Source of the DNA: Eudorina sp. 2006-703-Eu-15
Lineage: Eukaryota > Chlorophyta > Chlorophyceae > Chlamydomonadales > Volvocaceae
Length of the DNA: 64,000 bases
NCBI GenBank assembly: GCA_003117195.1
Contig: BDSI01000100.1
Coordinates: 124,001 to 188,000, forward strand
Direction: 5' to 3'
Shown here: positions 2,225-23,224 of the stretch, piece by piece
How the letters are laid out: each line of letters opens with the position of its first letter
How positions within the stretch are numbered: position 1 is the stretch's first letter
The notes under the pieces: model-generated
What the model was told of the DNA's origin: nothing
What the model saw: the letters and a program-made list of their open reading frames with translations, nothing else
Databases searched by the model: none
Made by a program: the position numbers and the translations under genes

Positions 2225-2297
<73 letters not shown>

Positions 2298-5146
2298 CGT
2301 TACATATCTGCCGGGCCGACACTGGCCGGGGGCGCTAACCCGCCCCATACGGGAGACCGCCGAAGCACTTTCCCCCGGATACGGGGGAAAGGGGCGTAAG
2401 GGGCCTCTGTCCCCTCGCTCTCAACCAAGGGCGCGTGCCCGATCCCCGAGGATCGGTGACCGCTGTGCCCCCTCAAGGGAGTGGGCGAAGGCCCATCCCG
2501 GGCGGTCTGCGCCTGTGTGTGTGTGTGTTTGCGTGTCAGCAATCAGCCCGCCCGAACTGCCGAGGCCCATGAAGCCATGATACCTACCAATTAAGCTGAA
2601 ATTTACTGTGTTTGCGTGTAACTGCATGTGCCTCATGTCGGTGAGGAAGGCCTTTCCCGCACATACACATACACATACACATGGATATTGCACACCAAAG
2701 AATGCGCCAACCACCCAACGCATTACCACCCAACTACCAACGCGACCGCACACACACCACCACACACCCAACTGCCACTGCAGGACCGGCTGGTCGAGTA
2801 CGACAGGAATGCGGCCAAGCGTACGACGGTCATTGACGACCAGAGCGACTTTTTCGAAATCGACACCAACGCCTGGCTGACGGATCAGGTGGGCGCTCAG
2901 GGGCGAGGAGGGCGGGCGTCCTAAAGGGAGGGGTGGGTGGGATGGGACGGAGCTCTGAGGACGGATCCGGGGCTGGCCGATTGTGGATGCCAAGGGGGTT
3001 TCCCAAGGGCGAGGTGCTGGGGGAGAGGCGGAGGGGAGAGGGCGCGGGGCGGCACACTGTAACAGCGCGTCGGGCAACTTGCTTTCCATGTCCCTCCTCC
3101 CCGTCCTCCTCCTCAAGGCCTCTGCTCGAGGGCCTCATGTGAGAGGCCTCCGTGCGCCGGTGGCCACAGGCGATGATGTGTCTGCCATGGTGGCCATCGG
3201 TCCGTCTGTCCGTCTGACTGGGACGGCCCATCCCACGCGACCGCGCCCCGCCTCACCCCGCTCCACCCCGCCTCACCCCGCTCCGCCGCGCCTCACCCCG
3301 CTCCGGACCCCCAGGAGCGGGAGGAGCTCAGGCGGCGGAGGCAGCTGGAGGAGGAGGCGGAGAAGGCCCGCCGCAAGCGCCTCACCGTCACCATCGACCT
3401 CATCGGCAGGAAGGTGGGTGCGGCCGCCGCTGGGGTGGAAGGCACCCCATGACGCAAAGGAGAGCAAGTGCCCCTTTGCCCCCCGCTGGTGTCCCCAGCC
3501 GCAGGCGCCCCCTCATTCGCCCGCTCGGCGCACCCACGCGTTTCCGCACCCACTGGCACCCGGTCAGAGGGTTCCCACGTCTTGACAGCCGGGCAGCTGC
3601 ACCACGGGGGTTCGCAACAGGTCTAAAGGTCCACCACCCACCCATCCGGCTTCCCATAAAGGGGGGCCGCAAAGCCAGATCCCGAACAGGGCTGCCCTCA
3701 CCCCCTCTCGCCCCCTTTACAGAGGTTCCTCGCCCGTTCAGGGCTTGCCTTTTGATGTACCGTAATCCCCGGCCTGGCGGGGTTCTCCAATGTCCTAGGA
3801 AGTCGTGACGGCGGCGGCTATCCATCGAACAGCCCCACCGTCTGACGACTGGCAACTGCCCGTATCCCGTGGGTTGCAGGTGGTGCTGGATGAGGATGTA
3901 CGGAAGGCGGAGATGGCGGCCGCGGCGGCCGCAGCGGAGCGCGCCACCGCCGCCGCGAAGGCCGCCGCCGCGGCGGAGGCGCTGCGCAACACAGACGGCG
4001 ACGGCAGCGGCGCGTATGGCAACGGCGTCGCCTTCAGCGGCAACGCGATGGGCGGCGGGGTGGGTGGCCGGGCGTCCGTCCGTCCGTCCGTCCGGCGAGG
4101 AGCTCGACTGTCCTTCCGCCTGCCCGTCCGCCTGTCCGGCCGCCTGTCATGCCATGAGTCCAATATGCGTCGGAATGACCTGCCTGCCCACCTCATAGGC
4201 TGTTTGCCACCTCGTTAGCTTGGCTGAACCGTCGCCGCTATGCTGCTGCTGTGTCGGGTTTGTGTTCCGCAGCTGCCGGCGAACGGGCCCACTCAGGAGC
4301 AACTCGCCGCCGCCCTGGACGCGTTGAAGCGGATGAAGGCGGCCGTGAACCCGGCGGTGACAGCCACCGCGGCGCCGCTGTTCCTGCCCACCGCAGCCAC
4401 CGCCGGCGGCGGGGCCGCAGCGACTGCCGGCGGCGGCGCCCGAGGGGCCGCGTCAGCCGGGGCAACCTCCGCTGCGTCGGCGTCAGCGTCGGCGGCTGCA
4501 CCTGGGGCGGCTGCAGTGCGAGGTGCGGCCGATGTGTGTCCGGGTGGGTCATATGTACATTATATATGGTGGTGGTGCTGCCAGTGGTCTCCGTGCACCA
4601 ACTCGCAATTCCCACCCTCCCTCATCGTCCGTCCCTCGCCATCCCTCCCTCGCTCGTCATTCCTTGCCTGCCTGCCTGCCTTGTCTGCCTGCCTGACTTG
4701 TCTGCCTGCCTGACTTGCCTGCCTGCCTGACTTGTCTGCCTGCCTGACTTGTCTGCCTGCCTGCCAGACTTGTCTGCCTGCCTGACTTGTCTGCCTGCCT
4801 GACTTGTCTGCCTGCCTGACTTGTCTGCCTGCCTGACTTGTCTGCCTGCCTGACTTGGCTGCCTTGGCTGCCTTGGCTGCCTTGTCTGCCCCTATCAGGC
4901 GGGAGAGCCGGCCGTGCCGGGGCCGCACACCCGCCTCAGCGCGCCGGGAGGCCCGCCGGGTCGGCGGCGCCGCCTCGCCGCCACGAGCGGGTGCAGCACG
5001 ACCTGGGCGCTGAGTTTGGGTTTGACGCCTTCGGAGCCGAGGTGGCGCTGGACGAGCTGATGGGTGGGGCGCTGCTGGCGGGGGCTGAGCAGCAGGTGAG
5101 GGGGGGGGCCGGGGCGGGGGGCCGGCCGGTCGCGGTGCGGGGCTGA
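816..5146 (+). CDS. TRIP4: TRIP4/ASC-1 (activating signal cointegrator 1) homologue, 5' partial
   Basis: Homologue of TRIP4, the zinc-finger subunit of the ASC-1 complex, which acts in transcription coactivation, ribosome quality control and alkylation-damage signalling. Exons read: 816-883, 1098-1170, 1821-2014, 2784-2888, 3315-3413, 3880-4059, 4273-4543 (4522 also keeps frame) and 4899-5146; phase is kept at every junction. Exons 2-3 form the C2HC5-type finger: NCLGCGKIYDC, then VCTFCG across the splice. Exons 4-5 carry the family block: RLVEYDRN, VIDDQSDFF, NAWLTDQ, then a charged helix ending TVTIDLIGRKV. The last exon contains ERVQHDLGAEFG. About 410 residues are visible. No C-terminal ASCH domain is seen, unlike human TRIP4. 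Ala-rich insertions are typical of algal proteins. The end is uncertain: a GT donor at 5095 could splice onward, but reading through gives a stop at 5144-5146. Confidence 0.85.
2228..2294. repeat. (GT)n microsatellite
   Basis: About 33 GT units directly abutting the 3' terminus of a truncated LINE copy (minus orientation). Confidence 0.98.
2295..2513 (-). mobile_element. 5'-truncated LINE copy C (3' terminus only)
   Basis: About 219 bp nearly identical to the 3' end of the LINE at 15987-22184. Read on the minus strand it ends CAGATATGTAACGATT and runs into (AC)n. Its other side, at 2514, also enters GTGTGTGTGTGTGT, so AC/GT repeat lies on both sides. It sits in the TRIP4 intron between the exons at 1821-2014 and 2784-2888. 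Confidence 0.9.
4681..4860. repeat. 17-bp minisatellite in a TRIP4 intron
   Basis: About ten units of CTGACTTGTCTGCCTGC with small variants, degrading into TTGGCTGCC repeats. It lies in the last TRIP4 intron and ends about 40 bases before the acceptor at 4898, so it forms the pyrimidine-rich part of that intron end. Confidence 0.9.
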
Positions 5147-7802
5147 GAGAGGAGGCGGAGAAACGGAGGTTGGAGGCGCGGGGCGAGGTATCGCGTCGGG
5201 TTCCAATGTCGTGTTTCAGTTGTCGTGTTTATGTGTCGTGTTCCTGAACCCTGAAAGGAATACGAGCCTGTGAGTGTGATGAATACGCTGTCTCTAGGGG
5301 GCACCGTCTTTTCCCTGTGGGGTGTCAAAAGTGAATCCCGTCGAAGCGGTCGGGATGTGTGTGTGACTGGATCGGTGAAGTGTGAGATTGTGATTTGGCC
5401 CATCCCTGGAGAGCATAGGGTTGCCGAGTGGTGTGTGCCGGTGCCGCCGAGGAGGCGGCGAGCTGGGGGGGGCGCCCGGTGGAAGTGAGGCGGCGGGCGC
5501 ATGGAGCGAGGTGGCGGAAGCATGTGCCCTTTGCGCGCGACACACGCGGGCGCTGAACACGCACCGCAAGCAACAAGCAGAAGTCGCAGAGGCTGACGCT
5601 GAGAGGAACCGATTATTGTTAAGGATGTTACAGCGGACCCCGCGGGTCATCGGTGACAGCCACCGGCGACAGCCGAGGCTTCCTCACCATACACTGCCTA
5701 AAAGAACTGGCTCCACCATGGCGCTCCGGGCAGGCTCCACAAGTGCACCGAAACATTCCCAGGGCCCACACTACCAGGGAACCACCCCGTTCCTGAGAAC
5801 CAACCACGGTGAGGGATAAAGCCCGCTCAGGGGGAGTTAGCCACCAGGGCGCCCCTATTGGCGAAGCACCACCCCACCAAGGCGGGGTCAATTCTCCAGC
5901 GGTGGCCCGTAGTATGGGAGAGCCACGGGGGCTCGCGAGTCACCATCAGGGGCCTGCCCGTACGGTCCCACCGGGCCAAAAAATGCGCTCAAAAATAGCG
6001 ATAGCGCCACCGGGCGTCAGTGCCCCGTCCGCCCGCAGCCCACTACTACTGAACGCCCTACAGGGCTTCGGTTAACAAACCGGGCCTGACGGAACCGGGC
6101 CACGGCACACCAGACGACCGTCCTGCAATTCAAGACGGGGTTTGTAACCCCCACAGCTGACCACCCTTTCACTGGGACTCCCAGCTCCGCGAAGTCGTAA
6201 AGCCGGCTCCAATAGTCCGCCACTGCCCGCTAGCCCTTCAGAATCCTAGGCGTGGGCCGTACCGCCCCGGCGCCGGGGTATGTCCCGCATCCACATGGGG
6301 CCACCGCCGCCCCCCTCATGTGGGAGTTACCGAGCATCGGGATGCCATCAACCGCCAGTCGCCGATGTTATGCCCGATGTTGTGCCCCACCGATGCTGTG
6401 CCCCGCAGCAAAGGCAGGGCGAGGATGATGTATTGGCGAGGCAGGGTTGGTCTGAAGCTCAAAGGGGGGAAAAGATAGTCATAATCTGCGTGGCTCGCAA
6501 CCTCACAGCAACCTCGGCCAGCGGCTCACCACCTGTGCTGCGATCAACGGGGCCCGGGGGGGGGGGCCGGGTCAGACAGGCGGGATGTGCTCACGACAGC
6601 AGCCGACCGACCCACCGTTGTGGTGCACCCGCGGGGGAGTCGTCCCGCGACCCTCCCGAGCCTCTGAAAACGAAACTGTGCGTCGAGGGCATGAGGGACT
6701 GCGCGTTCACTAAGGGTTGGGGTGTTGGTCGTCGACCGCTGCTGTTCACAGCGCTTTGCAGCGCGGAGACGGCGGCTGCGAAGCATGAGGACATGAAGGT
6801 GACATGGTCATCGGCATGTTGTGAGCGCATGCGCGAGCGCGATGACCGCGTGCCCCCCGGAACCTCTTGGCCAGGGAGTTTGCTTAACACGGCGTGTGAC
6901 CTCGCAGCACGCACCGCACCTCTCCGCACGAGTGCGGCGCAACGATCTCTTGCTTCAGAATCGCGCGCTTCGCATAAATGCGATTTACATTGAGAACATG
7001 ACCGACGTTTCGGCAGTAACTACAACGGAATATGATCGGTTCAAAGCCAGCCTAAGCCAGCAACGTTGTGAACGGCGGGAGCCACGGTGGAGAGGGATCT
7101 ATCGCACTGACAGGAGCGATTGGATTTAAGAAGTGAATGAAAATAAGTAAATTGTTTCCTCGCTGCAGCCGTAGTGCACTCAGCCGCAGAACTGACGGCA
7201 CAACAACTCGTGACTCGCGCTCTTCGACGATTCTACATTAGGATTGACAGTCATCAGGCGGTGCATGAATGGTGTCCGTGAGTTGAGCAGAATATTTTGA
7301 GCACAACGGATGGACGCGCAAGGAGTCGTCCGGTCGCTGCGGCATGAGGATGGAGCCGCGAGTGATGTACACGACTCAGCAATTGGCGACGCCCGTCTTA
7401 TGACCACGAAAGAGCTCATGAATTATGCTCGAGGGCTGGCCCCATGGCTTCGCTTGGCAGCGGCAACGACACAGGCATTACCTGCCCAGGTCGCCACTCC
7501 TTGCCGAGACCTCAGTCCCGAAGGCCCCTACGCCCCAGAAAATGCGACCGAGCTACCAATCTGTCCTTTCCCCGACTTCTCGGCAAGGGGCCGACGCGTC
7601 GTAAGCATCCGGTGTTGCGCGGCGTGTTCACGGTTTCATCGGGCCTCATTACCAGGCTCCCCGCTTACAATGCTGGCTCATTTGATTATCGTCGGTGGTT
7701 TCGGATCCGCTGTTGCGTGTCGTGTTGGCAATGAGTCCTGTCCTCCGTACCATGTGCCTCGTACGGACGTAGGACGGCCCGTACGACATCTGTCCGCCGG
7801 AC
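5147..7802. other. Intergenic region, TRIP4 to AlkB
   Basis: Apart from the LINE remnant I see no supported gene. A 237-codon frame at 6280-6993 (+) and a 132-codon frame at 5421-5819 have no recognisable domain and lack the regional codon pattern. The stretch 6780-7400 is noticeably richer in A/T than its surroundings. Confidence 0.5.
5612..6230 (-). mobile_element. Remnant of a second LINE family (ORF2 C-terminus plus 3' UTR)
   Basis: The minus frame at about 6223-6100 reads YWSRLYDFAELGVPVKGW then VGVTNPVL. This aligns with the C-terminal tail of the larger LINE (FWQRVASFAELGRPRRGW, VGPDHPIL), so it appears to be the end of a reverse-transcriptase ORF. About 400 bases of non-coding sequence follow, ending in the ATGACCCGCGGGGTCCGCTG motif at 5612-5660. 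That motif recurs alone at three other places. The copy is 5'-truncated and diverged. Confidence 0.6.
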
Positions 7803-9975
7803 ATGGCCCCGAGCACATCTTACTCTGCCGCCGCCAAGGCGCCGTCGGTCCGGTCCGCGGGTACGGCATCAAAGGCCGTACCGGGCCTGCCACCGGGTGT
7901 CGTACTTCTCAAGGGGTACCTGCAGCTGGACGAGCAGATCAAGATTGTCCAACAGATCCGAGAGCTGGGCATCGGGCACGGCGGGTTTTATGTGCCGTCG
8001 TACAACACGGGGGGCCGTCTGGCGCTGCGGATGATGTGTCTGGGACTTCATTGGGAGCCCCGGACGAGCAAGTACGAGAAGACACGGTGAGGCTAGACCC
8101 CGTGAGAAGACAGACCGTCGGAAGTTGGCCGCCGTCACGCCCGTCTTGCAGACCGCCCCAAGCCCCAGAACGCGCCACTCCACACACCGTAATGTCGCAT
8201 ATCACATGTCTCGCTGGGGCAGGCGGAACAACCCGAGTGCTGACCCTTGCCGTACCGCGTTGGCAGGTCGTCGTACGACGGTGCCACGCCGCCCCCCATA
8301 CCACCTTGGCTGGTGGACGTCTGCGACCGTTGCCTGGGTGCCGCTTCCGCGGCCGCCGTCGCGGCGGGCGGGTCGCGCTTCCCCGCGCTGCGACCCGACA
8401 TCTGCCTGGCTAACTTTTACGAGCGGTCGGGTCGGCTGGGGATGCACCAGGTGCGTGGAGGGGTGGGTGGGGGAGGCCGCCGGGTTGGGTGGGTGGGGGA
8501 GGGCTCTGGCTGCAGCCGAGTATGTTGTGTTGTTCTCCATTATTGTGGGACGTAAGAGCGATTGGCGGAGGGCCCTGGCTGACCGGGCCGCAAGGCTCTT
8601 CGGACCCGGTGACGGTGACGGTGACGGTGACGGTGACCTGAAAAGGAGATCGCGCAGTCGCCAGCTCGCCATAAAAGTGCGCTACCGAGCCGGCGGGCTT
8701 GCAGGGCCATGTGAGGGGGACAACGGATGGCGTGGCGGCTCCCAGCGGATGCGACGCGGCCGGCGTTTTCGGTGGGACTCCGCTGCGGCCCAGGGTGCGG
8801 TTGCCACGAATTTGAGGCCAGCCAGCCAGCCAGCCGGCTGTTGCTGCTGCTGCTGCTGCTGCTGGTAGAGCCTCCGCCCTGCGCCACTCGAGTACTAGGA
8901 TAGTAACGCCCCGGGGTGGACCATCTAGGGTTACTCGGAATGCGGTGCTCGGAATATGAGCACCTCGGGGCGACCGATGGGGCGGTTCAACCCCCCGCTT
9001 CGCCACCTCGCCCTCCACCCCACCCCACCCCACCCCACCCCACCACCACCACCCAGGACAAGGATGAGATGCCCGGCTCTCTGCGCGCGGGGCTGCCCGT
9101 GGTGTCGCTCTCGGTGGGAGACTCGGCGGACTTCCTGTACGGCAAGTGAGTCACGGGCAGACGTCGGGGACGCGACCGGGACGACCCCGCTCGCCCGCGG
9201 CCCCGCCTGTGTGTGTTTGTGTTGACACACCTGCACGGTCCGCAAAGCTCTTCTGAAGCTCTCTTGACGTGTGTCCCGGCTGCGGCCGAGGCCCAGATGC
9301 AGCACTTCTTCAGGACAGGGGGGGGGCAAGGAATTCTGCCGATGGCGGGGAGGAGATACCGTAGCAGGTGCCGGGGGTTCTGCACCCATCCATCCATCCA
9401 TCCATCAGGGGCGCAGGAGGTACAATACCCGCCAACTCGCATAGGGGCGCAGGATGCGGCACTCGGGGCGGGGCGGATGGGTGCCGCAGCGGCTTATGAC
9501 TTGGATTGCGCTGCGCTCAGCGGGGCCCGAGGCCAAATCGCCGTCACGGGCTCGCCCTTCGGCTGACCGATGCCGTGCCTGGCCGAGCCCGCAACCCGGT
9601 TGCCGTGAAGCTTGCCGTACAGGTCCGCAACCCCCCTAAGGTATGTCTCGCTTCTCCCCCGTCCTCCTCCAGCAGCGCAGTTTGAGTATGTCTACCAATT
9701 TCCTGTACGCCCACCTTTTCATCCTCAACCTGTCTCCCCCGCTTGACCCCTGCCCACTTTCGGCACCCCCCAGGACACGCGAAGTGGAGGACGCCGGCAG
9801 CGTGCGGCTGGAGTCGGGCGACGTGCTTGTGTTCGGAGGCCCGGGGCGCATGATCTTCCACTCGGTGGCCAAGGTCTACCCCAACACGGCGCCTCCGGAG
9901 CTCATCCGAGCCACGGGGATCAGACCGGGGCGGCTGAACCTCACGTTCCGGCAGTACCAGGCGGCCGGGGAGTAG
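7803..9975 (+). CDS. AlkB-type 2-oxoglutarate/Fe(II)-dependent dioxygenase (ALKBH1/AlkB-like)
   Basis: Predicted oxidative demethylase of alkylated nucleic acid, using Fe(II) and 2-oxoglutarate. Four exons keep phase: 7803-8086, 8267-8450, 9057-9145 and 9774-9975, giving 252 residues, close to bacterial AlkB in size. The iron ligands are visible: H155 and D157 in LGMHQDKDE, split by an intron, and H215 in RMIFHSVAK. The 2-oxoglutarate-binding end is RLNLTFRQY, with R239 and R245 matching the R-x-N-x-T-x-R motif. Other family blocks are PVVSLSVGDSADFLYGK and VRLESGDVLVFGG. The HQDKDE and NLTFRQ wording is closer to bacterial AlkB than to animal ALKBH2/3. The ATG at 7803 is the first in frame. 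Residues 1-30 are Ala/Ser-rich and could be a targeting segment. The substrate (DNA, RNA or tRNA) cannot be told from sequence. Confidence 0.92.
9668..9709 (+). repeat. Family A element, copy 4
   Basis: Contains CAGCAGCGCAGTTTGAGTAT then GTCTACCAATTTCCTGTACG. It lies in the last AlkB intron, in gene sense, about 65 bases upstream of the acceptor at 9773. Confidence 0.85.
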
Positions 9976-12289
9976 CCGCCGGCGCGCCGTGGGGCGGGGG
10001 TGGAGGGGAGGGCCTGGGAGCGGGCGCGGCTGTGCGCTGGGGAAGGGCCACAGTGGGTAGGAAGCGGTGGTCATGCATGGCGGGGAGGGTGTGGAAAGGA
10101 AAGCAAACTACCCGACCCGGAAAGACACAGCCGCTTGAGGTTGATGGCGGGAGTTGATGGCGGTTTCTCAACGGTTAGGACGTTAGGTGACGGGAGGGCG
10201 GGGCGGATGCAGGTTACAGCGAAACACAAGCTCAAAACGAATCTGCAGGACGGAGAGGACTGCGGCTTGTGACTGCGCGGGGCGGATGTGTGTTTGTTTG
10301 TGTTGGGTTTGGCCGGGGTGTGAGCTGTTCCAGCCTCCCGGTGGATCTTCGGGTGGTGTACGGCACAAGCGGTTTCGAGATGGCAACGGGCAGAGGCGGT
10401 TGCGGGCGCGACAACCACAGGCGGCCGGGTAAGAAGGCGGGAACGGAACCGTGAATGGGATCCTCCGCACCGGAGGCGCATCCGGTTGCGGGCGTAAGGA
10501 CGACAGAGACGGATGAGTCCCAGGAACTGCCAACAACGCCAACAACACAAGCGCGGATGCCGCGGTGGTTTCGCGGCACCGGCCCAGGTGCATGTGGGCT
10601 CGGGCCTCGTGAGGACGTGGCCTCGCACGGAATCGCCAGCCGTGCTGTCCCACAGGACAACTGACAGGACAACCGCCCGCTCGCTTCGCATTGATTGCCT
10701 TGATCGCGGCGGTCCTGCAGAACGGTTCCCACGTGTGTGCACGTGTACCTGTCTGTATGTCCTCGGCGGATTTCGCTTCGAAGCGGACCTGGTCCGGTGC
10801 TGCAATCGGGGGGAAGGGGGCGAATCCTGGCGGATCCCCCTTCGCATTGTGTGGTGAGGAGGCTTCGGCGGTCACACTGATGACACGCTGGCGGGTCCAC
10901 TCCCACCCGTGTAACATGATTCTATCTGAAAATGCGGCGCACACGACGGGAGTTTTTGCAGCACTTGCAAGCACTGGTAGGCAGCGACGCAGGCGCCCTG
11001 CTTCGTCACAGAAGAGCTCCTCACGGCGGTGCAACGCACTGGAACGTTCTGGACTAAAGAGTGCTGTACGATAATCCAGCCAGCCAACTATGTACGGTGT
11101 GCCATGCCAACGAGACGCCTTGACAGGGTACTCGTGCGCTCCCCGTATGACCACCGTAAGCCTGGGCCTGTTGGACGGAGTATGTGTCCACAGTGTACAG
11201 GCTGAATAAAAATTGACAATGTACTCTATTATTGACAGTGAACTTCACCTTTACTACACATCGTTTCGACGTATTGCACGGGAACAACAGTACGGATGCT
11301 CATACGGGGGCTCGAACCCCGGACCTGCGGCTCGCATGCTTTGCATAAGACCACCGCTCTAACCGACTGAGCTATATGAGCATATGTCCAACTGTCGTTT
11401 TGCAAACATATTGTAGCTGAAGAGTTCACGTAAACTGTTGTCCAAGGTGGCCGACCGACCCAAGGTGACGCCCTCCGCTCGCTGGCCGACGACGCTGATA
11501 GGTTGAGCTGCGTCAAGACGCAGCAAACGCTCCTTGTGGCGAGCTTTGTTTGCCGTTTCTGGCAAGCTACGCAACGTGCCTTACGATCCCTGGACAGCTC
11601 CTGAGTTTCTGTCGAGACTACAGAGGAGTCTTGGTCGTGAACCACAGCACGTTGCATAAGTCGCGTTTACAATGCTACGAAAGTCCTATATTTCATGTCA
11701 CAGAGCTGTGACCCAGCTGTGACCCATAGATAGAAAGACAGAAATGCCTCGGGATTGCCGTCGTTTGGCAGCGCAAGTGCAACTCTTGGACCTGGGGAGT
11801 ACAATAAAAATAAAACAAAATATAATACAATAAATTTATCATCGGATGTGCATTTTCTTGAGACCCAGAAGTGATGTACCCTGTACGCCAGCGACAGGGA
11901 TCGACATGGAGGAGGCCGCATGCGAAGGTCCAGGTCTTCACTGCAAAATTGACGCGTAAGGATAGTATTTGTGACACCTGCGACATAAACGCCTCGTCAT
12001 TTACGCCGTGTCTGCTGACGCCGCGTATCGAACGGCGGAAGCCCGCGACATCCTACCTTGCGGAACAAATTGCAAACTCTGGTATCACGCCGCCATAACA
12101 GTATTGGCGGTCACATCAAAATTGCTGCCGGCTACCACCGATTTACAGAACTCACGCCGCTGTTGGGGTTTGCTGTTGGTCGCCGACATCCCGCGAAAAC
12201 TACGCGGACGATCCCAACGCCCCTGCGAGTCCTTCAAACGCATCCGCTGAGCTACCAAAACCACACACATCCAGATTGATCACGATCAA
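9976..12289. other. Intergenic region, AlkB to Gln/His-rich gene
   Basis: Contains the tRNA at 11297-11381. The long frames on the minus strand at 10071-11154 overlap each other in several phases and show no domain, so I treat them as chance frames in GC-rich DNA. From about 11050 to 12250 the sequence is AT-richer. A TGTAA polyadenylation-type signal is seen near 10909, but it is over 900 bases from the AlkB stop. Confidence 0.5.
11297..11381 (-). tRNA. tRNA-Ile (anticodon UAU), with a short intron
   Basis: On the minus strand the acceptor stem GCTCATA pairs with TATGAGC, followed by discriminator A at 11297. The D stem is GCTC/GAGC and the T arm is CGGGG-TTCGAGC-CCCCG. The anticodon stem GTGGT/GCCGC brackets loop CTTATG, with an extra stretch of about 11 bases (CAAAGCATGCG) before the 3' strand. 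This is the canonical intron position next to base 37. Removing it leaves about 74 bases, a normal tRNA length. Anticodon TAT with A73 suits isoleucine. Exact intron ends are uncertain by one or two bases. Confidence 0.85.
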
Positions 12290-14614: not shown

Positions 14615-15289
14615 CTGTTCGCGCTCCGCTGCAAACACGGGCGAGGCTGTGGTGAAGGCGAGCTCGCAGAAGCTGTGTACGGAAAGGTGTACGGAAGGAA
14701 GTTGCGGCGGGCGCGTGCGGGCCGCCAAGAATGGTGCAGTATATATGTTAGTCCGTCCGAATCGAGTGCTAGCCAGGGGAGAGGACAGGTGAAAGCGCAG
14801 GTCGCAGCGCTTGAGGCGCAGGCTCCGCGGCATGACTCATCGTACGACATACGAAAAACCGGTATGTGATGCCCCTGTTGTGGTGATGGCAGTCTCGCAC
14901 AGCGGCCAGCAGGCAGGTGTGTCGCATTAGTGGTCACGGCTGTGCTGACCGCCGCCCCATTCGCTCGCCCAATCTCTCGCACTGCTTCGGCGGACCCACG
15001 GGTCAGTGGCGGCGATGTCAGTGGCCGCGGCACCCCGACCCGCGTCGCGGCCACCGCCAGGTGCCCCCGGCGGCGAGGTACAGAGAAATGAACATGAACT
15101 CGCGCGCGCGGGGGGCAGACAAAACGAAACGGAAGGGCCGTCGGTCCCTCAAGAGCGCGAGCCGGTGATGCGGTGGTCCCGTCCCCCTCTGCCTCGCCTC
15201 GCCTCGTAGCAGGTATGACACCGATGTGGGTGTGTGACCCGCTCCAACTGAGTCAGCTGTGACGGTAGCACTGTTAAGGTGGGGAGGTG

Positions 15290-15388
<99 letters not shown>

Positions 15389-15898
15389 TAGAATTGCAAC
15401 CCGCCCGCCCGCCCGATCCCAGGTGGTAATATACTTACCATAGAACCTGCGAGGAAAAACTTACCAAATGCAGGCGCGCGGACAAGGCAGCCGCGCCACC
15501 ACCGCAAGGCAAATCATACCGCAAATACTAAATACGGAGACGCACGACGCACGCAAACGGATTGGCTACCGACCTGTAAAATGTACGACGAATATATGGT
15601 GACGGTCCCCACGGAAGCAGCGTCGGTCGTCCATCATGCGGGAACGCGGAAGGAAGCAAGTTGTGAGGCAAAGCGGAAGGGAGCAAGACAAAATACAGTA
15701 ACTAGACAAGGTGAAAGCAAACAGGATGAAAGCAAACAGGTTACTATGGTGGTGGCGCGGCTACGGGTGAGAATCGCGGAAGGAGGGATTTGTAGGCAGG
15801 GACGCGTACGAACGCGGCATGGGTGCAGTACGGCAGTGTACGGAAGGGACGCCAGCGTGCCAGCGGCCGGTGGGGTAATGACACATGTGCGAATAATG
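14615..15898. other. Non-coding stretch between the Gln/His-rich gene and the LINE
   Basis: Probable 3' flank. A TGTAAAA motif lies near 15576. The (GT)n array at 15292-15384 is followed by TTTTAGAATTGCAACCCGC, a motif that recurs next to other AC/GT runs. No supported gene. Confidence 0.5.
15292..15384. repeat. (GT)n microsatellite
   Basis: About 46 GT units, followed by the TTTTAGAATTGCAACCCGC motif. Confidence 0.98.
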
Positions 15899-15899
15899 C

Positions 15900-15901
<2 letters not shown>

Positions 15902-15986
<85 letters not shown>
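15902..15986. repeat. (GT)n microsatellite at the 3' end of the LINE
   Basis: About 42 GT units. On the LINE's strand this is the (AC)n tail directly after its 3' terminus at 15987. Confidence 0.98.
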
Positions 15987-15989
<3 letters not shown>

Positions 15990-16653
15990 CGTTACATATC
16001 TGCCGGGCCGACACTGGCCGGGGGCGCTAACCCGCCCCATACGGGAGACCGCCGAAGCACTTTCCCCGGATACGGGGGAAAGGGGCGTAAGGGGCCTCTG
16101 TCCCCTCGCTCTCAACCTAGGGCGCGTGCCAGATCCCCGAGGATCGGTGACCGCTGTGCCCCCTCAAGGGAGTGGGCGAAGGCCCATCCCGGGCGGTCTG
16201 CGCCTCGCAGTCCGCTGTTCAACCTCCTCAAGTCCTTGCAGCACCCAGGGCGCGTTTCGGAGGCGCGCCCCTGCTTGGTGCGGTAAAACTAGCCTGGTCC
16301 CGCGTCCTAACCTAATCGTAATAGCTAGGGTTGCACCCTTCGGCAGGCCTGCCTGCCCAGCTGAGCCAGAGCGAGGCGGCTCGCACGCGTCAGGCCTTGC
16401 TGGGTCCGGGTATGCAGTCGGGTGCTCCATGATGGGGCTATGGTTTGCACAAGGCAGCACATCACCACGCAAGCTTCCCTGTCGTACACCCCTTCCCGTC
16501 GCAAGCGGCCCTCGCCTACACGTCCCGCTCGCTGCCAACTCCCACTGGTCGGGCCCGACCCTCCTCGGGCACCCTCGGATCCCCATCGTGCCCGGAAGTG
16601 GGCTTCCCTAGTCCCAATCCCTACCCCTAGCGTCTCGCGCTGCTATCTATCCA

Positions 16654-19600
16654 TCACGAGTCTACGTCTACTGGCTGCACGCAGCGGATCCGGCCGTCCA
16701 CCACCGATAGGATTGGGTGGTCCGGTCCCACCCCCTCCCATCCCCGTCGCGGTCGGCCCAGTTCTGCGAAACTGGCCACCCGCTGCCAGAACTCCATGAC
16801 TGCGCGCGCCTTAGCTACATCAACCGGCGACGGGGCAGCCGGCGCCCCCGGCACGGGCTGTGCGCCGCCGTGGAGGGTCGCTGCACGTAACCCCACCCTC
16901 GCCCGCTCCATGGCCGTCAGCGCCGCTAGGGCAACGATGTCCCAAACCCCTTGCTGTACCCCCTGTGGCGGCTCAGCCAGCCACACGTTGGCTCGGGTGA
17001 TGGGGCCCGGAACGTGTACCCCGATCTGCTGTATCACTGCCTGAGCGACCGGGCATGCCCAGAAATGGTGTGCCCGTGGTGAACACGGGTGGGGCCCCGC
17101 ACCGCCGTACTCGCCACACCCGCACGCCTCGGGTGGGCGTTGTGGAGGTGGCTGTTGCCAGGCAGCGGGACCCCGTCAACCGCCAGGCGCCACAGTGTTT
17201 CTTTGTGCTCTCGTTCCCACTTGATGGCCCAAAGCCGCTGTAGAGTGGCAGGCATGCTGAATGCCGGGGGCCCAGCCACTCCGTCTGTCTCAAGCTGTCC
17301 CCTGGCCTCCTGCTCGTATTCCGCATGCTGTCGTGCCCGTGCGGCCGCCACCTCCTGCATCTGCAGCTGTGTCGCCAGCCGGACCGTCAGGCCACTAAGC
17401 TTGACCGTCAGCGAGTTGGCTAGCCTCCACCCCATCCGGTCCACAAGCCGCCGACGGGTCTCTTCCTCAGACTCCAGGTCCCCCGCCCGCTCGGGATGGT
17501 CCAGCACCGCTGCTGCAGCTCCCCGCCACTCGTCGCTGATGTCGGCGAGTAGACAGTGGATGGCCGTCAGGGTCGGCCTCCGCCTTAAGGTCATGGACCC
17601 CTGTGGACCCAGGTGGTCGCGGACCCACGCGTCCCATCCAGCACCGGCTGCGGGTGCCTCGCCGGCTGCACGCGCGACCCGCACTGCGTCCCCAACTGTG
17701 CGAAGCTTCCCGCATGCTGCCAGGCGTGTGTGCCGCCTCTCCAGGCCGGGCCACGCTGGCGGGTCCGCGGTGTCCCGCGTCTCCACCGGCGTGAAGTCCG
17801 GGTCCGTGTCGCCTGTGCGGTCCTCCATGCCATCGTCCGCTGCCCCCGGAGTGGTGTTAGGTAGGAGTGGGTTCCCCCACAAGGGGATGTTGAAGCACCA
17901 GTCGCCGGCCGCCGGGAGTGGGGATGAGTCCACATCTTGCACCGGCGGGAGGCGGCTGAGGGCCCCCATGATTCTGCGGATGTCCTGCGGCAGCGATGCC
18001 AATCCAGGCAGCGTGTCCGCGCTGTCTGGTGGGCCTGCCGTCAGTACTGAGCTGGGGCTAAGATTCGGGTGGTGGTGCCGAAGGTAGGTGGCCGTCACCT
18101 GCGCCCACGGGTGGCCGCGCACCCCTGGCGGTTGGCCCACCGACCGGGCCAGGCGTGTCGCCCACACAGCCTCCCGCGCGTAGCAGTGGGCTTTGAGTGG
18201 CAAGAGTCCGAAACCGCCCGTGGCCGGGTGGCCATAGAGCAGCTGTCGGGGGACGCCCGTTAGGCGTTGGCAAGGCGTCACCGGGCTGACCCGCCGGTCC
18301 CCGACGGCCGCGGCCCAGCTCTCCAGTTGTTCCTCCTCGCCTTGTGTGGGGAGGCCGCCATGTTCCCAGTGGTACGTATCCAGTTGGAGTGCGTAGGCAG
18401 AAGCCCCCGCACAGCGACCGAATACAGTCAGCGGCGGTCTGGTGAGGCGGTCCATGCGTTGTCGGGCTGTCAAGAGGGACTGCTGCCGGGTGGGGGCAAG
18501 GAGGGCTGGAGAGTTCGAGAATCGGATACCGAGAGCGGTGGCTGCCGAGACCTGTCGGAGCCCTGCAATCGTGGCGGCGTTCGGTCCCGGTGCCGGTGGT
18601 TGCGGCTGCTCGGATCCAATCTTCAGGAGTTCCACCTTGTCTCGGTTCAACCGTTGCCCAGCTGCTTGCGCGAAGGTTTGCATGGCCTCAAGAAACGCCG
18701 GGACAGTCGCCTCCCCTTCCAGAAGGACCTGGCCGTCGTCTGCGAACTGAACCGCTGTCATGCGGTCCTCGTCTGCGGGACTCATTCGGATCCCGATGTT
18801 GTTCCGCTGCAGCCATGACAGAAGGGCTTGCGCTACAAAGAGATACAGCAGGGGGGCCAAGGGGCATCCCTGCCGTACGCCCGCCGCCATGTGGACCGGG
18901 TGGGAGAGCCGGCCTCCCACCAGTGTCTGCGCCCGTGTGTCCGACAGGAGAGTCGAGACCCACTTGCGCAGGTTTTCAGATGCGCCCAGTTCCCGCATCG
19001 CAGCCTCCAAAAAGTCGCGGTGGACGGTGTCGTACGCTTTGGCGAAGTCCAGGAAGGCGACGATGGCTGCGCGCCCTTGCCGGCGGAGGAGATGGGGGAG
19101 GTGGCGGAGGGTGAAGATATTGTAGCCAATCAGGCGGCCCGGCAGGAAGGCCGTCTGCTCGGCGGAGATGGCGGTGTTGAGGGCGGGCCCCAGGCGCGCT
19201 GCCAGTATTTTGGCGAGGGTGCGGTAGTCGGTGTTGAGAAGGGTGATAGGGCGGTAGTTTCCCGGCTGCGTGGGGTCGCCTTTTTTGAACAGTACCTTGA
19301 TAATGCCGTCTGTGAACCTTGCCGGCATGCAGCCAGTCCTACCGATGGCTGTGTATACAGCGGCCATCAGGGGAGCGCACTGCCTGCTGAAGGCCTTGTA
19401 TAGCTCAACGGGCAGTCCATCCCATCCTGGTGCCTTGCCCCGTGGCGTGGCCTTGAGGGCCGCCAGTACCTCCTCGGTGGCGACCTCAGGATGGCCGACG
19501 GTGTCCCCCGGGTCCTCCGGTAGGCGTAGGGGGTGGGCCTGTAGGGCCTCCAGGACCTGCGCCTGTGCTTGCTGCTTCACTGCCGTCGGCAGCTCGGCCT

Positions 19601-21058
19601 CTGATGGCAGGGCGCTGACGTCCCGCCAATAGTCTGCAATGATTTGGGCCACTCGTGCGGGGTCGCTGGCGAGTTGGCCCGTGTTGGGGTCTCGCAGAAC
19701 GGAGGGACCTGGGCCACCTGCATCTCCTCCGCTGCCGGTGTCATGGACAAGCTTAGTGAGCGCCGGGGAGGGCCGCTCGCCGTCGCTGATCCATTTCCGC
19801 CTGGCTGCGAGCACCTCGGCCCCCCCTGCGGCGTGCATGCCTTTCTGTACGGCTACCTGGGCTTCCACGGCCGCCGCCAGGCGGGCTGCATCTGCAGGGT
19901 GTTCATCCAGAGCTTTGGTGGCCTCCTTTGCCGCCTCCGTCAGCTGTTGCACGCTGGCTGTGGGTCGGCTGCGCCGGGTCTGAGCCTCACGATTCAGCTG
20001 CGCCACCTGGGCTGTGAGTCGCCGCTTGAACCCGGGCCACCAATCCAGGATTTCTTGGTCTTGTTGTTGTTCCCCGATAGGTGCAGCGTCCACCTGCTCG
20101 TCCAGCCAGTCTCCCAGGGACCGTTTAAGGTCTGGGTGCGAGAGGAAGTGGAGGCGAAGGCGGCGGGGCACCTTCTGGATTGGGGGCTGCGGTCGCGCCG
20201 ATAGGTGTAAGAGGGCAAGGCGGTGGTCTGACGGGGACGCGGTGGGGATGGTGGCTCGGTGAATGAAGGGGCTTGCGACCTCCGGGATGTAGATGCGGTC
20301 CAGTCGGGAGCCGCCAGGGTGAGGTGCGCGGTACAGGTGTGTGTACTCGCGTCGTTGCGGATGCGTCACGCGGAAGCTGTCGACCATCGCCGCACCGGTT
20401 CCAGCTGCCTGGAGATACTGGGACGGGGTCGCGTCACCAGCGCGGCCCCCCGGTCCGGCGGAGCAGTCCAGGGCTGGGTTTTCCACAAAGTTGAAGTCGC
20501 CCCCCCACAGCACAACCGTGCCATCGCCAGCCGCAGCTGTTGCTGTGGGGGCGAGGCAGGCCTGGCATAGTTGCTGGCGCAGGGAGGCGGCTCCTTCTCT
20601 GCTGGCCTGGGGGAAGTACATACAGCATATCTGCAGACGGTGACCGCCCCACTGAAAGCTGCACGCTGTGAACCACCCGGATGGAACACCCGGCGGTGGA
20701 GGGCTAGCTGCGAGGGTGGCTCGGGGAGCAGGTTCGCCCGGACGAGGATGGCTACTCCTGCCGTACGTGGCCCCGCACTTGACCACGAGGAGGCAGCGAT
20801 GAGCCAGCCCGGTAGGTGTCGACGCTCTGCAGCGCAGCTGAGCGCGTGCTGCAGGAGGGCCTGATCTTCCTCTGAGACGTGATGTGTTTCTTGCAGACAG
20901 ACCACGTCGAGTTGTAATTCAGCCCATAGTTGGACCGCTGCTTCGAGGCGTGCTGCTGCACGTCCCTCGGCAACTCGGAGGCCTCCCACATTGTGGGACG
21001 CCACCCGCAATGGTCGGGCATGGGGGGCCCGGCCTCCCCTGGCAGTTGCGCTCCTCAT
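16654..21058 (-). pseudogene. LINE ORF2: AP-endonuclease plus reverse transcriptase, with two frame breaks
   Basis: Starts at the ATG overlapping the ORF1 stop. The endonuclease motifs are SHNVGGL, CLQETH, GGDFNFVEN, SRLDRIYI and SDHRLALLHL. The RT has GYNIF, motif A AFLDFAKAYDTVHRDFL, motif B VRQGCPLAPLLYLF and motif C VQFADDGQVLL. The frame used at the start (21058) and the frame carrying the rest of the endonuclease and the RT (an uninterrupted 1250 codons ending at 17034) differ, so an indel lies near 20690-20735. A second shift near 17110-17140 moves the C-terminus to a third frame. That frame reads CGCGEYGG, then HPCSPRAHHFWACP, a Cys/His finger usual at LINE ORF2 ends, and finishes at 16654. 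I describe the breaks only. Confidence 0.88.
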
Positions 21059-22182
21059 GGTCCGGGGGTTCGCGGCGTGGTCGCCGCTCTCGCCTGGGAG
21101 GGTACTGTGTCAGGGGCGTCCTCGCGGGTTGCCTGGGACAGCCGTAGCTGCATGCTGGGGACGGTCTGCTGGCTGGGTCCCGGGGCGTCTGCGTGCTGGC
21201 TGGCGTCGGCAGCTGCTCTCTTGTCAGCCTTGGCGAGCACGGACTTCCTCTGGGCGCGCCGCGCGCCCTCCTGAAGGGATATGAGCCGTTCACGGTACAC
21301 GCCCATAGGTTCGTCTGTGCCGTCGGCGACCACCTTGCGCATCCACTGCTTTCTCCCGGGGGTGTTGTACGTGGCCAGGAGCTCCGCATCCGAGAGGTCC
21401 GTGATCGGGACCGATTTGCCACGTTTGCGGTTGGCCTTGGGGCTGGTCAGGGTGGGGGACCTGCCCCTTTTGGGTGTTGCGGCGCCGGGGCCGGGCCCAA
21501 CCGGGGTATTATCGGGCTGTGTGGCTGGGCCGTCTGCCGATTGCGCCCTGTTAGGCTCACAAGGCGTTGCAGCGGCAGGGGTAGCCGCCTGTTGGCCGCG
21601 TCGCTGGCGGGCCCGCGTGGTGCGGGGCGTCGTAGCGGCTGTTTGCCCGCTCCCCGTGGCACCTTCGGCCGTCTCAGTTGTCGTTGCGGGCTTGCTGGGG
21701 GCGGCGGTGGCCCGATTCGCAGCCCTGGTCGGGGTGGCGCATTCGGCAGCCCTGGTCTCCGTGGCGCGCTGTGCCTCGGCATGCTGCGCCTCGGCGGCGG
21801 CGGGCGCAGCGGTGCGTTGTGTCTCGGCGGCGGCGGCGGCGGCTGCAGCCTCACGCTGTGCCTCGGCACGCTGTGCCTCGGCGGCGGCGGCTGCGGCGGC
21901 GGCGATTCGTGCGGCCTTGGCCTCCGCGTCTTGCTGGGCTAAGTGCGCCGCTGTCCGAGCTCTGACCTCAGCGTTGTGCGCTTTGGTCTCTTGATCCGCC
22001 TGCTGCCGGAGTGTTTCCGCGAGCTGCTGCGCGGCCGCGCGGTTACCGGAGGATGCGGGAGTCCGTGTCTGACCGTCCGTTGCTGCTCTGGCTGTAGGCG
22101 CCGGGGTCCCCCTTGCGCTTCGGCTCGCCCTGTCCGCCGTCGCCGTGGTTGCGGCTGCCGCCGCTGCCTGGCCTGGGGCGTG

Positions 22183-22184
<2 letters not shown>
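21055..22184 (-). CDS. LINE ORF1 protein (5' truncated)
   Basis: An open frame of about 375 residues inside the element. The first third to half is an Ala/Gln/Glu/Arg-rich region likely to form a coiled coil (repeated AEAQRA-type wording). A basic Ser/Pro segment follows (PKRGRSPTLTSPKANRKRGK), and then a short ordered block (ITDLSDAELLATYNTPGRKQ). No zinc knuckle is seen. By position it should be the RNA-binding, particle-forming ORF1 product. Its stop overlaps the ORF2 start as ATGA at 21058-21055. The frame continues upstream through the AC repeat into the neighbouring copy, so the native start is lost. Confidence 0.7.

Positions 22185-22229
<45 letters not shown>
22185..22229. repeat. (GT)n microsatellite between two LINE copies
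   Basis: About 22 GT units between the 5' end of LINE copy A and the 3' end of copy B. The short insertion AAACGAGAGCT and a few more GT units follow. Confidence 0.97.
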
Positions 22230-22232
<3 letters not shown>

Positions 22233-22247
22233 CGAGAGCTGTGTGTG

Positions 22248-22664
22248 AATCGTTACATATCTGCCGGGCCGACACTGGCCGGGGGCGCTAACCCGCCCCA
22301 TACGGGAGACCGCCGAAGCACTTTCCCCCGGATACGGGGGAAAGGGGCGTAAGGGGCCTCTGTCCCCTCGCTCTCAACCTAGGGCGCGTGCCCGATCCCC
22401 GAGGATCGGTGACCGCTGTGCCCCCTCAAGGGAGTGGGCGAAGGCCCATCCCGGGCGGTCTGCGCCTCGCAGTCCGCTGTTCAACCTCCTCAAGTCCTCG
22501 CAGCACCCAGGGCGCGTTTCGGAGGCGCGCCCCTGCTTGGTGCGGTAAAACTAGCCTGGTCCCGCGTCCCAACCTAATCGTAATAGCTAGGGTTGCACCC
22601 TCCGGCAGGCCTGCCTGCCCAGCTGAGCCAGAGCGAGGCGGCTCGCACGCGTCAGGCCTTGCTG
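22248..22664 (-). mobile_element. 5'-truncated LINE copy B
   Basis: About 417 bp matching 15987-16406 of copy A with only a handful of differences. Its 3' end enters the GT/AC repeat at 22185-22247. Its truncated 5' side at 22664 also enters TGTGTGTGTGG and then a further GTGTGTGTGTGTGT block. Copy A lies immediately downstream on the same strand, apparently inserted in the AC tail of this copy. Confidence 0.92.
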
Positions 22665-23224
22665 TGTGTGTGGGGCATGTGTGTGTGTGTGGGACTTGGC
22701 ACGTTGGCAGTGGCGCGATTGGGCCATGCACAGATGGAATGGGGAGCTGCGGCGGGATGCGGTCGCATGTGAGATGAAGGTTTCGAATGGTGGGTGGAGG
22801 GCGGTGTCGCGGGCGCTGAGTCGAGTGCTTTTTTAGCATGGCATGGTGCCGCAGCAGGTGGAGGGGACGGACACGCCGTGGCACCGTACTGCCAGGTTTG
22901 AGTGGATGCACTGACGGTGCGAATGCGCCGGCGGCTTGCGAACAGTCGCTGCCTGGGAGATGCATTGCGCATTTTCGCTGTTTGTTGGCCCGTCGTTAGG
23001 CAGGTAGTCGAAAGACGGTCAGGACTGGAACATGAACACCGTGCGTTCGTGGGTTGCGTACGAAGGGGCCGCGGCAGCGGCCGTACGTATATTCGCGGAG
23101 GAGCACTGGCGCTCTGGCGGTCAACGTCGACCAAGTGTGTCACTGAACCCGGTCGTGGTGCAGTACTCCCGGGTACCGTGCCGTACCGTACCATACCGTA
23201 AATTACTTTGAGAAACATGAATCA

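Follow-up and report, generated by a model that had tools for sequence, protein, structure and literature searches.

An L1-like LINE family of the green alga Eudorina that probably integrates into pre-existing (AC)n/(GT)n microsatellites

A LINE family of L1-like character in the volvocine alga Eudorina appears to use (AC)n/(GT)n microsatellites that already exist as specific integration targets, with reverse transcription primed from the GT strand, a reading to which a probability of roughly 0.88 is assigned. The evidence consists of a repeat on both sides of most copies, a single orientation of that repeat, variable 5' ends, an excess of microhomology at the 5' junction, and close neighbours that point in the same direction. 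Most copies lie within AC/GT microsatellites and share one direction, so the repeats are most likely the landing sites, extended by the element's own tail, and would have been present before insertion.

The family was recognised from three copies in the 64-kb window, the whole stretch of DNA that was analysed (Table 1). The coordinates given for these copies in the initial annotation are correct to within a few bases, and its two observations on them, that GT/AC repeat flanks both sides of every copy and that the 5' breakpoints are unequal, are borne out by the sequence, in which the breakpoints fall at 2513, 22183 and 22664. The match of copy 2 to most other copies ends at 22183. Copy 3 is adjoined at its 3' terminus by TGTGTGTG alone, and AAACGAGAGC stands between TGTGTGTG and the next GT tract. 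An Rfam scan of the window at gathering scores returned one tRNA and nothing within the LINE element.

Table 1. Features of the LINE family and its flanking repeats in the 64-kb window
Feature	Position	Strand	Basis or remark
(GT)33.5 tract, 3' side of LINE copy 1	2228..2294	.	sequence
LINE copy 1, 219 bp of 3' UTR, 5'-truncated	2295..2513	-	98.6% identity to copy 2
TG repeat (15 bp), 5' junction of LINE copy 1	2514..2528	.	sequence
H2 repeat-family copy, next to LINE copy 2	15386..15901	-	between GT tracts 15292-15385 and 15902-15986
(GT)42.5 tract, 3' side of LINE copy 2	15902..15986	.	sequence
LINE copy 2, 6.2 kb, 5'-truncated within ORF1	15987..22183	-
3'-terminal module, ~75 nt	15987..16061	-	alignments; shared across several element groups with unlike upstream sequence
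ORF2, endonuclease (PF03372) and reverse transcriptase (PF00078)	16660..21058	-	three pieces, frame changes near 20724 and 17110
ORF1, 5'-truncated	21055..22183	-	open frame upstream of ORF2
(TG)22.5 tract, 5' junction of LINE copy 2	22184..22229	.	one extra base at 22184
TGTGTGTG (8 bp), 3' end of LINE copy 3	22240..22247	.
LINE copy 3, 5'-truncated	22248..22664	-	98.6% identity to copy 2
TGTGTGTGTG, 10-bp TG run, 5' junction of LINE copy 3	22663..22672	.	microhomology overlap with the element

Full-length copies elsewhere in the genome extend about 1.2 kb beyond copy 2, to a length of about 7.4 kb. In copy 2, ORF2 is broken unless its frame changes are assembly errors; two of its pieces resemble the APE-type endonuclease PF03372, one scoring above the curated cut-off and one just below, and the same domain is found in the relatives P0002, P0003, P0010 and P0011. 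The Pfam scan gave no match for ORF1 and no restriction-like endonuclease in the family. Compared with solved structures, the reverse transcriptase (RT) of ORF2 is closest to human L1 ORF2p (E 4e-41), R2 reaching E 4.5e-18 at best, while an RT tree places it with Tetrabaena proteins named LINE-1 reverse transcriptase; the reference sets of both comparisons contained no R1 RT. A comparison of the endonuclease piece with solved structures gave no match up to E 1. By sequence, the family is L1-like with relatives in Tetrabaena; P0007, P0009, P0011 and P0020 are relatives from Tetrabaena socialis and Volvox africanus. The roughly 75-nt module conserved at the 3' terminus is probably a recognition signal for the RT; its predicted RNA fold is suggestive only, because an excess of stability over shuffled sequences is clear in group D alone (z -2.35, against -0.5 to -1.2 for the other folds). 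At least 17 matches at 100% over a 414-bp query, the window's own among them, were present within the best 40 of 1,365 candidates, which suggests recent activity of the family. A search of viral_contigs for relatives with their flanks examined 79 pattern stretches and yielded none.

Across the genome, the exact 3'-terminal 23-mer occurs 792 times. Copies were read at 91 of the first 100 listed sites, together with other copies. From a list of 109 matches, 80 distinct copies with a usable 5' junction remained after removal of those with a cut-off flank (13), another family upstream (8), no start at the terminus (6), or a duplicate (2). A GT run, counted at the 5' junction from a length of at least 6 bp, was found there in 68 of the 80 copies, and the repeat in opposite orientation in none, so that most copies do not show the non-AC 5' junctions that would speak against the proposal of the initial annotation. 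At random positions of the window, the corresponding background is 1.9% for GT and 1.8% for AC (56,468 positions). A position-ordered sample from contigs C1-C7 gave GT at 58 of 70 5' junctions. On the 3' side, a GT run is present in 78 of the 80 copies; TGTG adjoins the terminus on the complementary strand in 71, the 3' ends running into (CA)n, and genome-wide an exact TGTGTGTG precedes 624 of the 792 termini. Full-length copies show the same arrangement: (GT)5 lies within 8-38 bp of the exact 5' end in 12 of 14 (two of these having one flank in common), the flank was read for 13, and in the thirteenth, L106, the GT is broken up by a run of G.

The 12 copies without a GT run at the 5' junction are of several kinds. 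In L014, L067 and L080, GT occurs 20-22 bp further out, beyond a scrap of mostly element-like sequence, and in L017, L061, L072 and L081 the junction carries degenerate GT. L045 meets TTTAGGG repeats, the 5' flanks of L024 and L063 are plainly non-GT, and L070 and L078 have no GT on either side.

The details of the junctions bear on whether the repeat preceded the element or was made by it. Target-site duplications outside the repeat were seen in 5 of 95 cases, compared with 107 of 1,880 mismatched control pairs (5.7%), which is no excess over chance and is expected if the duplication falls within the repeat. Together with the census of 5' junctions, this result supports the proposal of insertion into pre-existing AC microsatellites. 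Microhomology between the element and the repeat at the 5' junction has a mean of 1.54 nt, compared with 0.90 in simulations, and 0 of 2,000 simulations reached the observed mean. Two further comparisons of the flanking repeats add little: interruptions common to both sides numbered 0 against a shuffle mean of 0.96, a test of little power and hence uninformative, and the difference between GT runs on the 3' and 5' sides (39 versus 29, flanks cut at 120 bp) is not significant (p = 0.087).

Copies are dispersed at about 6 per Mb on C1-C7, the first 100 of the 792 exact termini being spread over C1-C8, and close neighbours share a direction. Neighbours less than 5 kb apart lie on the same strand in 16 cases and on opposite strands in 1; the figures are 4 and 3 at 5-12 kb, and 28 and 40 at 12 kb or more. 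Pairs less than 2.5 kb apart number 13, with about 1.5 expected. Some clusters are duplicated segments, such as L011/L013, whose copies differ at one base, and two C3 copies (1936926 and 1940563) have the same 5' end and flank. Tandem or segmental duplication, rather than repeated targeting, is nevertheless a most unlikely source of the clusters and repeated flanks as a whole, since just 2 copies were removed as duplicates in 5' end and flank, the 80 that were counted are distinct in one or the other, and dispersed copies would be left unexplained.

A search for empty sites used nine joined flank pairs, obtained from the 68 GT-flanked copies after discarding repeated, gapped or GT-rich flanks. 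An unoccupied paralogue was found for 0 of the 9 among the best 40 of 633 candidates scored, and the sole junction-spanning match is one of the nine sites itself, with an insert of just 41 bp. L011/L013 was considered as an empty/filled pair and set aside; it fits deletion as well as insertion, because a deletion between both copies yields the same result. A sibling strain of the species has been sequenced (PMC6123790); this is the male strain NIES-4100, with assembly EudorinaMale_1.0 (BDSJ01).

If the repeat is the target, integration may proceed as follows. The APE-type endonuclease would nick the repeat, probably on its GT strand, and the freed 3' end (...GTGTG) would prime reverse transcription of the element RNA by pairing with its (CA)n tail, the RT presumably recognising the conserved 3'-terminal module together with the tail. 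Synthesis of cDNA would mostly stop early, leaving 5' truncation, and short GT microhomologies would then serve to join the cDNA to the far side of that repeat. By adding fresh repeat, the tail would renew the target, so that the tail of an earlier copy can become the insertion site of a later one with the same orientation. Specificity could be set by the endonuclease or by the pairing of tail and primer.

A variant compatible with this main explanation places the choice in annealing: nicking would be loose, and only nicks in GT repeats would prime on the (CA)n tail. It is a plausible but minority prospect. At least one further family with a different 3' end, H1, shows GTGTGT ahead of 317 of its 342 exact matches, counted on the 3' side only, and the truncated 5' end of one H2 copy abuts GT; against the variant, the conserved 3' module suggests that RT recognition extends beyond the tail. 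If it held, target choice would be a property of the tail, open to any RNA ending in (CA)n. H2 was also considered as a 7.8-kb LINE array and dropped, 4 kb of C6 having given no match to five LINE proteins.

Alternatively, insertion might be random and the repeat made by the element, in which case slippage would produce the (CA)n tail on the 3' side, and end repair or template jumping would supply the AC on the 5' side. In favour of this, (CA)n tails are listed for some green-algal L1s (PMC3747384, Table 3) and RTE elements are described as making 3' microsatellites in Lepidoptera (PMC2887409). Within the family itself, the only target duplication that looks real, GTGTGTGTGTGTGGTCCTGT at L038, is separated from the element by a long GT tail, which was therefore probably made by the element. 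Random insertion is very unlikely all the same: it predicts non-AC target duplications by the tail and non-AC 5' flanks, neither of which exceeds chance or background, and does not predict close same-direction neighbours or GT microhomology at the 5' junction. The initial annotation had set a slippage-made tail, which would explain only the 3' side, against insertion into a target. The repeat as target is supported, but it does not displace the tail; both are probably real, given the published algal tails.

Waldo and Mino, of the arthropod R1 clade, are APE-type LINEs with microsatellite targets. The likeness to R1-clade elements raised in the initial annotation amounts at most to an analogy of target choice, for the Eudorina family is L1-like by sequence, with human L1 ORF2p as its nearest solved RT in a comparison that held no R1 RT. 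According to PMC4640811, most reports of target specificity among APE-type LINEs concern the Tx1 and R1 clades. The Togen families of fish are likewise described there as (TG)n microsatellite-specific, but they are NeSL-related and belong to the clade with a restriction-like endonuclease, whereas the Eudorina family combines an APE-type endonuclease with an L1-like RT.

Among algal elements, one close parallel is provided by the green-algal L1s of Ohshima (2013), some families of which have (CA)n 3' repeats; the same source records 3' ends common to some algal LINEs and SINEs, and the portion of it available reports the tail without stating insertion into a pre-existing AC repeat (PMC3747384). 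Zepp/ZeppL of Coccomyxa, Chlorella and Chlamydomonas share with the Eudorina family the L1 type, frequent 5' truncation and nested clusters; as described in PMC8226300 and PMC3747384, however, Zepp and L1-1_CR end in poly(A) rather than (CA)n, and ZeppL forms tight clusters at putative centromeres rather than being dispersed. The RTE elements of Lepidoptera also carry a simple repeat at the 3' end, which PMC2887409 explains by 3' slippage, in contrast to the two-sided repeat found here. More generally, the transposable elements of plants and humans are often microsatellite-flanked and interpreted as targeted, with the microsatellites serving as "landing pads" (Kejnovsky 2013, as cited in PMC12477314); as summarised there, this is a general tendency, whereas the Eudorina case concerns one family, one dinucleotide and one orientation.

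The (CA)n tails of algal L1s and the existence of (TG)n-specific animal LINEs are thus already known. In searches of the open-access literature, none of the papers listed reports an AC-specific LINE, L1-like or otherwise, in green algae. If the main reading is true, target specificity would have a further origin, in a green-algal L1-like LINE, and this element would lend itself to comparison in asking how specificity is set by the endonuclease or by tail pairing. AC microsatellites would also gain a concrete source in the family, as it adjoins 432 of the 2,199 long TG-tract ends of one searched form. A broader picture, tentative and with somewhat less than even odds, is that of a green-algal L1 lineage whose dinucleotide targeting evolved independently of that in animal lineages and whose AC niche is self-renewing, each insertion into an AC repeat leaving a new AC tail as the next target. 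Several families with different 3' ends would share this niche as a guild, and the amount of AC repeat in the genome may partly be their doing.

The three copies of the LINE family proposed in the initial annotation were recovered at their positions in the window; all are minus-strand, their 3' terminus leftmost, and GT repeat (AC on the sense strand of the element) borders both ends of all three, as had been claimed. Their 5' ends fall at three different breakpoints, and copy 3 has merely 8 bp of repeat immediately at its 3' end. Among the five pure GT/AC tracts of at least 20 repeats in the window, three adjoin LINE copies. ORF2 carries an APE-type endonuclease domain (PF03372) and a reverse transcriptase domain (PF00078), and among solved structures human L1 ORF2p is nearest (E 4e-41), followed by R2. 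In a reverse transcriptase tree of 40 sequences, with no R1 reference among them, the LINE clusters with two proteins of Tetrabaena socialis that bear the name LINE-1 reverse transcriptase and with environmental sequences; the adjacent group consists of Volvox africanus and environmental sequences.

Features of the window, in window coordinates
Feature	Position	Strand	Remark
LINE copy 1	2295-2513	minus	
LINE copy 2	15987-22183	minus	
LINE copy 3	22248-22664	minus	
ORF2 in copy 2, first piece	21058-20723	minus	
ORF2 in copy 2, second piece	20726-17124	minus	
ORF2 in copy 2, third piece	17091-16660	minus	
H2 repeat copy (GT, then TTTAGAATTGCAACCCGCC)	15386-15901		between GT tracts, adjoining copy 2
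Decayed fragment	6086-6415	minus	resembles LINE ORF2 in its C-terminal part; identity to relatives about 41-67%
tRNA gene	11297-11381	minus	Rfam RF00005, 57.9 bits

The genome searched, in which the window is C100:124001-188000, comprised 181.2 Mb in 3,033 contigs, compared with a published 184.03 Mb in 3,180 contigs, so some contigs may be missing. The 3'-terminal 23-mer of the LINE has 792 exact matches, while its reversed control has none. Loci fetched from 91 of the first 100 listed 23-mer sites (L010-L099), together with nine others (L001-L009, the window's own copy among them) and the window, yielded 109 matches. Removed from the 5'-junction count were 13 with the flank cut off, 2 duplicates, 6 whose start did not lie at the terminus, and 8 in which another family takes over after the first 75-101 bp, leaving 80. 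At 68/80 of these junctions GT runs for 6 bp or more inside the 31 bp around the breakpoint, and the AC orientation occurs at 0/80, against a background rate of 1.9% over 56,468 window positions away from copies; most copies thus do not show the non-AC 5' sequence that would have spoken against the initial annotation. GT is present on the 3' side of 78 of the 80, and at the 5' junction of 58/70 copies when contigs C1-C7 are taken separately. The 12 remaining junctions comprise three with GT located 20-22 bp further out (L014, L067, L080), four with degenerate GT (L017, L061, L072, L081), two with plain 5' flanks (L024, L063), two without GT on either side (L070, L078), and one with TTTAGGG repeats in place of GT (L045, C3:459728). 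The last directly meets TAGGGTTTAGGGTTTAGG, a telomere-like repeat.

The 6.2-kb copy 2 is itself truncated, and other copies extend about 1.2 kb more to a fixed 5' terminus, beyond which lie AAGT units in variable number, one to about nine (complementary strand), and then directly GT. This arrangement occurs at 8/8 readable loci of the twelve fetched, including one whose GT contains a stretch of G (L106) and two with one common flank (L103, L107). Genome-wide, 14 exact 5' ends were located, 13 of which were read; (GT)5 lies within 8-38 bp in 12/14, and the thirteenth is L106. In the full-length copies L102-L111 and at these genome-wide ends, GT is in some cases interspersed among the AAGT units (L109).

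Slippage would account for a repeat on the 3' side alone, as the initial annotation had argued. Four results point to a repeat present before insertion. The 5' repeat is usually present whatever the truncation point. LINE 5' joints usually show microhomology; here, microhomology of the 5' joints with the repeat averages 1.54 against 0.90 in simulations that took alignment overrun into account, a value reached in 0/2,000. Neighbouring copies less than 5 kb apart share a strand in 16 cases and oppose in 1, as expected if new copies insert into the directional tails of older ones, compared with 4 same and 3 opposite at 5-12 kb and 28 same and 40 opposite at 12 kb or more, counts in which part of the clusters are duplicated segments. 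Target duplications outside the repeat stand at chance level (5/95, versus 5.7% in mismatched pairs), as would be the case for a duplication buried within the repeat. At L038, a convincing duplication at the tract edge is separated from the element by a long tail; LINE-made tails are therefore probably real as well as target choice. No unoccupied paralogue appeared for nine joined flank pairs among the candidates scored (40 of 633), no repeat interruptions are common to both sides of an insertion, and GT run lengths on the 3' and 5' sides do not differ significantly. In the duplicated pair L011/L013, L013 holds an additional copy within another copy's tail, readable as insertion or deletion.

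About 75 nt at the LINE 3' end are common to element groups A-D, with a diverged form in H5. Groups C and D (L014, L026, L030, L050 and L028, L034, L057, L059, L089) match the LINE over their last 75-101 bp and have no detectable similarity to it upstream of this module; they are possibly its non-autonomous partners, for which the common end could serve as a recognition signal, algal SINE and LINE pairs offering a comparison (PMC3747384). The predicted fold is clearly better than that of shuffles in group D only, so an RNA structure of the module is a suggestion.

TG tracts of 24 bp or longer have 2,199 ends of the form TG before a non-T base, the only ending counted, and 432 of these ends are directly followed by the LINE 3' end. 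Family H1 (GT, then TTATCAAGGAGAAAAGCTGAGCC) has 342 exact 3' ends, 317 of them preceded by GTGTGT, a count of the 3' side only. It occurs genome-wide and in LINE 5' flanks (for example L008, L044, L094), and some of its fragments between GT tracts seem just about 17 bp long. For H2, 681 candidates were found, and 40/40 scored cover nearly all of the 505-bp query; on C83, the truncated 5' end of one copy runs directly into GT. The H1 3' ends and the placement of H2 between GT tracts point to several families that carry or exploit AC repeats; a common cause would most simply be a (CA)n tail pairing with a GT primer.

PMC3747384 already describes (CA)n tails on green-algal L1 LINEs, and PMC4640811 describes Togen, a group of fish elements specific for (TG)n. 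Zepp inserts into other copies of itself, but its 3' end is poly(A) (PMC8226300, PMC3747384). Searches of an open-access library turned up no report of a green-algal LINE targeting AC repeats in this way, which agrees with the initial annotation. According to PMC8226300, simple and low-complexity repeats of Eudorina amount to 15.15 Mb, the most in Mb of eight species tabulated, though not the highest percentage; that LINE activity caused this abundance is speculation.
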